Origin: Microcaldota archaeon
GTDB lineage: Archaea > Micrarchaeota > Micrarchaeia > Norongarragalinales > Norongarragalinaceae
DNA length: 64,000 nucleotides
Direction: 5' to 3'
NCBI GenBank assembly: GCA_016188965.1
Contig: JACPGT010000011.1
Location: 37,632 to 101,631 of the forward strand
The notes beneath the pieces were generated by a model. The model was not told the origin of the DNA, ran no database searches, and saw nothing but the letters and a program-made list of their open reading frames with translations. This document shows positions 37,864-41,085 of the stretch, one piece after another. Each line of letters starts with the position of its first letter. Positions within the stretch are counted from its first letter, which is position 1. Position numbers and translations under genes: made by a program.

Positions 37864-38116
37864 GGGCCCAATGGGATTTGAGACCGGAACCGTGGAGGAA
37901 TCGGAAGCCCCCGTCGGTCCTTGTGACCGACGGCAACCACGTTTCCCTTCCCAGTTTCACGGTTATCACAAATCCGGATGGATTTGTGTGAGCCACACAA
38001 GTTCCCGAAGAAATTGTGCTGTCCTCCGGCCCCTCCCTCAAAATAGTCTTGAAAAATTAGAAGGAGAGGGCGAGGCGACCGGAGAGGGGGAACCTGGGTT
38101 CCCCCTTAGCGGTCAA
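37864..38116 (-). ncRNA. Candidate structured non-coding RNA downstream of tRNA-Lys
   Basis: Minus-strand hairpins incl. TTTC-TTCG-GGAA tetraloop, CCGTCGGTC/GACCGACGG, CACAAATCC/GGATTTGTG, GGGGGAAC/GTTCCCCC; followed by T-tract TTTTCTTTTTTTTTTC. Confidence 0.4.
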
Positions 38117-38229
38117 CGGGCCCGGTGGGATTTGGACCCACGACATTTCGGTTTCCATGAACGAAGCCGCCAGTTGCGGTGGTTTCGCGCTTAAGAGCCG
38201 AACGCTCTGCCAAGCTGAGCTACGGGCCC
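38117..38229 (-). tRNA. tRNA-Lys(CTT) with ~39-nt intron in the anticodon loop
   Basis: GGGCCCG acceptor/CGGGCCC, D-arm GCTCAGCTTGGCAGAGC, anticodon stem TTCGG...CCGAA split by insertion after position 37, T-arm GTGGG-TCCAAAT-CCCAC. Confidence 0.85.
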
Positions 38230-38367
38230 ATCGACGCCAACAGGCATGCATGCCGGTTGCTGGCGCAGAGGGGAAAAAATTGTTCCGAAGCGGGTTTATA
38301 TGGCTTTTTTCATGCACCGAAACAGACAAACGGAATATAAGCCGATGAAAAAGAACATTGTAGCGCC

Positions 38368-39421: not shown

Positions 39422-39997
39422 ATGAAAAGCTGTGCTATGGCGCGACGCGGCAAATCCAGCCCCTTATTGGAGCAAATATTCTCATTTGCCCAGGAAGTGT
39501 CCGGAGACCGTGGATTCCAGATCGCCCAAACGCTCGGCGAAGGCGCCACCGACGAAAAAATCGAGAAAAAGACCAAACTCAAGGTCGCCGAAATCCGCGC
39601 CACCTTGAACCAACTGCACCAGCATGGCATCGTGGAGTATACGCGCGAGAAAAACATGTCCAACGGCTGGTTCACCTACACCTGGCGCATCAACCCCGAC
39701 CGCGCCATGCGCAACTTCCTCACCGCCAAGAAGCGCGAATACGAAAAGCTCCGCAACCGCATGACTTCGGAAGAAACCGTCCTTTTTTACAAGTGCCGTA
39801 AGTCCTGCACCAAACTGGATTTCGACAAGGCCATGGAATACGGCTTCCGTTGCCCCGAATGCAACGGCAAAATGGCCTACGCGCAGAACCAAGGCGAAGT
39901 CAAGATGCTGGAAGACAAGATCAATGCGTTGGAACAAATCCTGACTTCGGGCGTGCCCACCATCGGCGACCAGACGGAAATGCGCAAAGTCGTCTAA
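39422..39997 (+). CDS. tfe: Transcription factor E (TFE alpha)
   Basis: N-terminal winged helix; CxxxC...CPECNGKM zinc ribbon. Confidence 0.87.
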   Translation: MKSCAMARRGKSSPLLEQIFSFAQEVSGDRGFQIAQTLGEGATDEKIEKKTKLKVAEIRATLNQLHQHGIVEYTREKNMSNGWFTYTWRINPDRAMRNFLTAKKREYEKLRNRMTSEETVLFYKCRKSCTKLDFDKAMEYGFRCPECNGKMAYAQNQGEVKMLEDKINALEQILTSGVPTIGDQTEMRKVV

Positions 39998-40108: not shown

Positions 40109-40978
40109 ATGGTCCAACGAATCGGCGAATTGGTGAAACAATACCGCGACCAGAAAATCCCAACCTCCGCCATCGCGGAAAAGACCGGGGAGCCGTAAGA
40201 GTCGGTCAAGCGGAGGCTCCTCCGCCACTTGGGCAAAACGCAATACCTGAAAATCGCCCGTTCGGTTGGCGGCCGAACCATGGCGGAGCGCGTGCGTGCC
40301 AATCCGGCCTTTCGTCAAAAATACGCCACCAACATGCGAGAAGTGGTTGGCCAAAGTCTGAAGACCCGAATACAGGATCGCGCATTCCGTGCGGCGTGGA
40401 AAGAAAAGGCAAAGAAAGGATCGAAAAAAGGCCTCGGACGCATCCGCCAGCTGATGCAAGACCCGTCGTTCCTACGGGCGTGGCGGGAAAAATGCCGCAA
40501 GGGAGGCAACGCGGCACACGATCGTTGCCTTGGAATACACGTGAAGGAAAACGCGGCCGCAAGAAAACAAGGATCGATTCGAGGCCTGCAACATACCGGG
40601 CGTAAAGTCATCGGGCCGTGCGGCGAGTCGATGTACAACGTCCTGGAAAAGAAGGTGGCAAGCATCCTCAAAAAACAAGGCGTGCCTTACCGGTACGAAG
40701 AACGATTCGATACGGATGAGGGCAACGGTTTTTGCAGCATCGACTTCACGGCAGGAAACCTCTTCATCGAAGTCACCGATTGGGATGACGCAAGAGAAAA
40801 GTCACGCAAACTGAACCGGAAATACCGGATGCTCAAGCACCAATTGCCTCGCCATGCCGCATTCGTCGTCGTGACAAAGCCAGGACGAGTTGAGCAGTAC
40901 CGGCGCCACTTAGAAAAGGATATAAGGGTCGTTCATCCCAGACAACTAACGGTATTCCTAGCGCAAATAGCGGGGTAA
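40109..40978 (+). pseudogene. HTH + nuclease-like protein interrupted by an in-frame TAA (40196-40198); intact downstream ORF 40229..40978
   Basis: MVQRIGELVKQYRDQKIPTSAIAEKTGEP-stop-ESVKRRLLRHLGKTQYLKIARSVGG in one frame; C-terminus CSIDFTAGNLFIEVTDWDDAREKSRKL resembles PD-(D/E)XK-type nuclease. Confidence 0.5.
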
Positions 40979-41085
40979 CAACAGCTAATTCGATTTTTAC
41001 GGATTAACTTTTGCCTCAAGGGTAGCCAGGAGTGCCCGCTGGGCTCATAACCCGGAGATCAGTGGTTCAAATCCACTCCCCGCTA
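40969..41085 (+). tRNA. Initiator tRNA-Met(CAT), apparently interrupted by ~42 nt between positions ~9 and 10
   Basis: AGCGGGGTA (40969-40977) complements CCCCGCT (41078-41084); body GGGTAGCCAGGAGTGCCCGCTGGGCTCATAACCCGGAGATCAGTGGTTCAAATCCACT. Confidence 0.7.

Follow-up and report, generated by a model that had tools for sequence, protein, structure and literature searches.

A predicted BHB intron at position 9/10 of an archaeal initiator tRNA gene adjoins a nuclease gene of a tRNA-linked family

The endonuclease genes that accompany bulge-helix-bulge (BHB) introns of archaeal rRNA genes are of the LAGLIDADG type and lie inside the intron, and I-Ssp6803I is a PD-(D/E)XK homing enzyme of a group I intron in a cyanobacterial tRNA-fMet gene. 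The latter enzyme is named in a passage of PMC1995217. Collaborative homing designates an arrangement in which the nuclease is encoded apart from the intron; the enzyme cleaves unoccupied targets, and a target that carries the intron is protected from it (PMC6083498). Non-canonical BHB introns are already known in archaeal tRNA genes, and the epsilon2 splicing endonuclease (EndA) of ARMAN-2 has broad specificity (PMC12397907). Introns have been proposed by Randau and Soll to protect tRNA genes from invading DNA (as cited in passages of PMC3293823 and PMC4090602), and in 2012 there was as yet no direct evidence tying disrupted tRNAs to mobile elements (PMC3293823). No report of a nuclease tied to archaeal tRNA introns was found in the open-access literature searched.

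Here, we analyze the initiator tRNA-Met locus of a Microcaldota archaeon in a stretch of 64,000 nucleotides (hereafter the window), along with related loci in genomes that are mostly metagenome assemblies. The initial annotation had described a tRNA body, a partner for its 3′ acceptor strand (AGCGGGG plus TA) 42 nt upstream at 40969 and an insert able to form a hairpin, all of which are present. The sequence directly 5′ of the body offers no acceptor strand, and the partner occupies 40969-40977 on the plus strand, where the 5′ exon (tRNA nt 1-9), AGCGGGGTA (AGCGGGG T A), pairs perfectly through its acceptor strand with CCCCGCT and matches the 5′ end of most intact orthologues. The predicted 42-nt intron (40978-41019, plus strand) falls between tRNA nt 9 and 10, and the 3′ exon (41020-41085, plus strand; GGGTAGCC...CCCGCTA) extends from nt 10 to the discriminator, matches Rfam family RF00005, has the same body sequence as the orthologue in genome G003 and carries GGG-CTCATAA-CCC with the initiator GGG-CAT-CCC stem. 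The motif AGCGGGGTR occurs twice on the two strands of the window, one occurrence being exactly at the 5′ exon. In silico removal of 40978-41019 yields a 75-nt cloverleaf, i.e., a normal initiator with an undamaged body. Since both exons lie in cis, 42 nt apart, the earlier comparison with the split tRNA of N. equitans proved unneeded, and a split tRNA was rejected. ARAGORN, whose intron option had been proposed as a check, did not detect the initiator gene with that option on or off, and Rfam recovers a truncated body alone (41019-41077, 32 bits). Other tRNA genes were seen along the way: a tRNA-Lys (CTT) on the minus strand of the window (38116-38230) whose anticodon loop holds a 39-nt intron at the canonical position, a tRNA-Phe (GAA) elsewhere in the same genome (L028, ~1451-1560, G000:C4) with a non-canonical D-loop intron of ~30-40 nt, also missed by ARAGORN, and, in the same genome too, a tRNA-like gene (L013, 1501-1581) with a long variable arm yet the anticodon GAA.

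The BHB folding suggested in the initial annotation gave a canonical motif in the 9/10 register. Exons and intron of the precursor form a 4-bp central helix H, in which GGGG (40972-40975, plus strand) pairs with CCTC (41014-41017, plus strand), between two 3-nt bulges, TAA (40976-40978) and AAG (41018-41020), that contain the exon junctions; the inner helix h′ is CAA:TTG, followed by the hairpin TAATTCG/CGGATTA (40986-40992/41000-41006). Shuffled introns equal the observed BHB in 0.35% of trials. In Micrarchaeota, 15 further initiator genes have an intron at this position, and 14 of the 16 genes, the one in the window included, form all four central pairs in the same register; G030 forms three of them in register, and G034 fits a shifted register only (by eye). 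In two lineages the acceptor stem is altered to GAGG and the intron ends differ accordingly (GAGG:CCTT and GAGG:CTTC); these compensatory changes support the 9/10 intron. The host genome also encodes a 390-amino acid EndA of the epsilon2 type (best PDB match ARMAN-2 EndA 4fz2, 441 bits), which, judging from the presence of the gene, is predicted to act on non-canonical sites.

Further support comes from uninterrupted orthologues that lie behind the same upstream gene. This gene (39422-39997, plus strand) is similar to that of transcription factor E alpha (TFE), and it directly precedes the initiator tRNA in nuclease-free relatives; in the syntenic cases examined by tblastn, TFE lies upstream of the intact initiator. 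Seven genomes of the same family hold an uninterrupted initiator, AGCGGGGTAGGGTAGCC..., with G at position 1 in G003, and these include both genomes of the same genus, G003 and G004, each with one initiator body near TFE. The predicted spliced product differs from the G003 tRNA only at the acceptor base (A1/G1) and from the G004 tRNA at one T-arm base. Occupancy by intron and nuclease is patchy and site-specific, with empty sites in relatives, as is that of homing endonuclease elements. An intron at about 9/10, the interpretation offered in the initial annotation, is borne out by the BHB register, the intact orthologues, the epsilon2-type EndA and the compensatory changes: the observation is confirmed and the predicted intron is supported, and the precursor would be spliced in vivo. 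Taken alone, the intron is one more of a known type.

The initial annotation overlooked that a nuclease gene ends inside the tRNA. TFE and the tRNA are ~0.97 kb apart in the window, and one open reading frame (~0.87 kb) fills nearly the whole insert, with no integrase-like frame between the flanking host genes. The open part (40199-40978, plus strand), assigned to a tRNA-linked PD-(D/E)XK-type nuclease from homologs in the phylum and a C-terminal fold match, stops at a TAA (40976-40978) made of tRNA T8, A9 and the first intron base. In the same frame, 40109-40198 (plus strand) codes for a helix-turn-helix-like N-terminal part that continues the N-terminus of the homologs (by eye), and the full frame, 40109-40978, contains one in-frame TAA (40196-40198); the window copy may itself be decaying. 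A putative TATA-like box, GATATAAG (40919-40926, plus strand), lies inside the nuclease frame, ~49 nt upstream of where the tRNA begins, and three of the intact relatives having such a hexamer have it at -49 to -51.

That the locus is a pseudogene or an assembly artefact, the true initiator being in missing sequence, is scarcely credible. Incompleteness of the genome (89% complete) and the in-frame stop of the nuclease copy speak for it, but the tRNA body is undamaged, predicted splicing gives a perfect initiator, the same arrangement recurs in seven other independent genomes, and in G003 and G004, too, just one initiator body is seen, in both cases intact and close to TFE. A second complete initiator gene, which the initial annotation had named as grounds for a pseudogene, was sought by pattern in the 89% complete genome and none was found; the best match of this genome to the initiator model has an E-value of 8.2e-15. 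Quite probably, this is the sole initiator tRNA gene and is functional, its 9/10 BHB intron having come from a homing-type element of which the nuclease would be the decaying engine.

The nuclease family was characterized by structure prediction and profile searches. An AlphaFold2 model built from the G098 homolog (pLDDT 85, pTM 0.46) shows helices followed by a C-terminal alpha/beta domain, which aligns with PD-(D/E)XK-type enzymes at VIA-align Z scores of 8-11, including the homing enzyme I-Bth0305I (Z 8.8) and Vsr and TnsA (both Z 8.1). Foldseek matches are weak (best E 0.0057), and the profile match to T7 endonuclease I is marginal (E 0.005). D-F ... E-x-T-x-W is invariant in all 23 family members, as are N/E residues, and the core is of the D ... 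E-x-K/T kind on a restriction-endonuclease-like fold, with T in place of the usual K and with moderate scores. Among the families listed by the fold search, we assign the protein to the restriction-endonuclease-like nucleases of the PD-(D/E)XK fold. Pfam scans returned no family above cut-offs, and the best PHROG match (E 0.001) was to a family without assigned function, such that no family name was accepted.

Across two DPANN phyla, a tRNA gene is abutted or overlapped by the nuclease gene in all 23 members (11 at initiator, 11 at Asn and one at Thr genes), and the target is interrupted in 21 of them, at 9/10 or at 15/16-16/17; the frames of L049 and L114 end within a few tens of nucleotides of the tRNA gene. 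Of 301 Micrarchaeota genomes, nine carry a homolog, every one beside an interrupted tRNA. Eight of these nine are at initiators with a 9/10 intron, where the end of the frame falls within the 5′ exon or very close to it on either side, and no close homolog was found away from initiators in the 301 genomes; in the ninth, distant homolog (L051), the frame ends at T8A9G10 of a tRNA-Asn gene whose D-loop contains an intron. A family-motif scan, run as a degenerate DNA pattern over ~85,000 genomes, gave eight matches, all at initiators, seven of them known before and one new (L054, Woesearchaeota); L052, L053 and L055-L059 are the same records as L044-L050. In the second phylum, L054, L113 and L114 are convergent with an initiator that has an intron at 15/16 and four-pair BHB helices. 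Profile search revealed a large Asn subfamily, with one Thr member, whose frames extend into the tRNA 5′ exon (e.g., GCCTCGGTAGCTCAG, translated as A-S-V-A-Q) and whose tRNAs are interrupted at 15/16 or 16/17 with two exceptions. In these two, L120 and L124, the nuclease frame overlaps a tRNA-Asn gene without an intron, a misfit with intron-based immunity. Initiator and Asn/Thr clades are split in the tree with 100/100 support and each holds both phyla, which indicates that the family tracks its tRNA target and not the host phylum. One candidate, L129, was dropped as an unrelated-looking protein in which the invariant core was absent by eye.

Such linkage bears directly on a second alternative, namely that the intron is a commonplace non-canonical BHB intron of an archaeon rich in introns and lies beside a nuclease that is an unrelated neighbor or a site-tolerant passenger. 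About half of the other tRNAs detected in this genome do contain introns, and intron and nuclease also occur apart. Genome G106 (L084) keeps the 9/10 intron with the nuclease reduced to a short C-terminal remnant, and seven further genomes have the 9/10 intron with no nuclease detected, which makes eight without an intact one; in ~17 more, initiator introns lie at other sites and no such nuclease was detected. Introns must thus also arise or persist otherwise. Against a chance neighborhood, however, stand the 23 of 23 members at tRNA genes and the 21 of 23 whose tRNA gene is interrupted close to the D-arm, a pattern seen in both phyla and in two orientations, as well as the 150 best initiator matches listed, all of which are uninterrupted and come from genomes without an iMet-type nuclease. 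We regard this alternative as improbable.

Introns at other sites are frequent in Micrarchaeota initiators, in the anticodon stem/loop, variable region and T-arm, several genes having two or three (L068-L074, L078-L080, L083, L085, L086, L088, L089, L092, L094). The initiator of L074 (G042), interrupted near 29/30, has a LAGLIDADG-like frame (GILLGDGSLG, by eye) ~130-830 nt upstream of its anticodon, which may represent another homing system acting on this gene.

At 9 of the 19 loci tested, the tRNA 5′ end is significantly duplicated directly before the nuclease frame (L044, 18/18 matching positions; L047, 13/14; L051, 12/14; L118, 12/12; L120, 12/14; L123, 8/9; L125, 8/10; L126, 16/17; L127, 14/19). 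In L044 the relic reads AGCGGGGTAGGGTAGCTT without interruption, which is what insertion of an element into the D-arm of an intact gene would produce. The candidate upstream of the window locus (7/10) is not significant, and 3′ relics by the convergent copies L054, L113 and L114 did not rise above shuffles. Separately, in L048 and L050 the 5′ exon is present as two tandem near-copies (GGCGGGGAAGCGGGGTAA; ATAGCGGGGCTGG...CCAGCGGGGTAA), and the same initiator gene holds an additional intron.

Duplicated tRNA 5′ fragments on either side of an insert resemble an attL/attR pair, and with the Caldiarchaeum tRNA-Thr as precedent (PMC3293823) they could be read as what is left of a larger integrative element, plasmid or virus, with a tyrosine integrase and an intron-bearing attachment site, the nuclease being cargo. 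This is very unlikely, as the nuclease is the sole gene seen to be common to the inserts and accounts in the window for ~0.87 of 0.97 kb, the host genes here enclose no integrase-like frame, and IMG/VR and the phage and plasmid collections contained no relative of the nuclease.

The BHB register, the intact orthologues, the exclusive linkage of the nuclease family to tRNA genes and the relics of tRNA 5′ ends seen at several loci suggest that a mobile element inserts into tRNA genes, its mark being an intron that can be spliced out. Such an element would act in four steps. The nuclease would cut an uninterrupted tRNA gene in or beside the D-arm; through repair from the donor, the nuclease gene, a replacement tRNA 5′ exon and a short intron would then be copied in, with the old 5′ fragment on one side and the 3′ part of the tRNA gene on the other. 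The rebuilt tRNA would be transcribed and its intron removed by host EndA, allowing the host to survive, and the intron would split the cleavage site and render the occupied gene immune. With the new 5′ exon supplied by the insert, an essential tRNA gene would never be lost. DNA cleavage, the cut site, transfer by repair and immunity are all deduced here from sequence. Collaborative homing is the simplest reading of the nuclease and intron pair, in which the nuclease gene adjoins the intron at the target and does not lie within it. We lean towards a previously undescribed class of archaeal mobile elements that homes into tRNA D-arms. Its nuclease gene would overlap the tRNA, the tRNA 5′ half would be duplicated and the gene rebuilt around a BHB intron serving both tRNA function and immunity, and decay of the nuclease would give rise to solo non-canonical introns.

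These observations bear on the origin of non-canonical archaeal tRNA introns and on the protection of tRNA genes from invading DNA. Linkage of the nuclease to interrupted tRNAs in 21 of 23 cases, together with unoccupied sites, relics of half-sites and a stage at which a mere remnant of the nuclease persists, makes the question testable; if true, the proposal would give a set of archaeal tRNA introns a direct origin. Compared with described systems, the locus shares with non-canonical BHB introns such as those attributed to the ARMAN-2 epsilon2 enzyme (PMC12397907, PMC4033280) the BHB geometry, a position other than 37/38 and an epsilon2-type endonuclease, but here the intron is coupled to a neighboring nuclease gene, the stop codon of which is located within the tRNA. 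The BHB introns of Thermoproteales 16S rRNA likewise combine such an intron with an endonuclease gene, according to a passage of PMC4496867, whereas here a PD-(D/E)XK-like gene lies outside an intron of 14-42 nt, in tRNA genes. I-Ssp6803I resembles the present nuclease, by description, in being of the PD-(D/E)XK type and in its association with an initiator tRNA gene; there, in contrast, a group I intron encodes the enzyme and the splicing chemistry is another. As at the Caldiarchaeum tRNA-Thr (PMC3293823), an intron would have been gained by insertion at a tRNA gene, with a 5′ tRNA fragment upstream, although that case involves a putative recombinase at a single locus of one population and the present one a nuclease family that recurs at 23 loci across two phyla. 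Finally, the free-standing F-CphI of cyanophage S-PM2, beside the intron-containing psbA (PMC6083498), is also encoded outside the intron and next to the interrupted target, and here too the intron would block self-cleavage; unlike the psbA case, the element proposed here would pair the nuclease with a protein-spliced BHB intron instead of a group I ribozyme, target tRNA genes of archaeal chromosomes and leave a relic duplication of the tRNA 5′ half.
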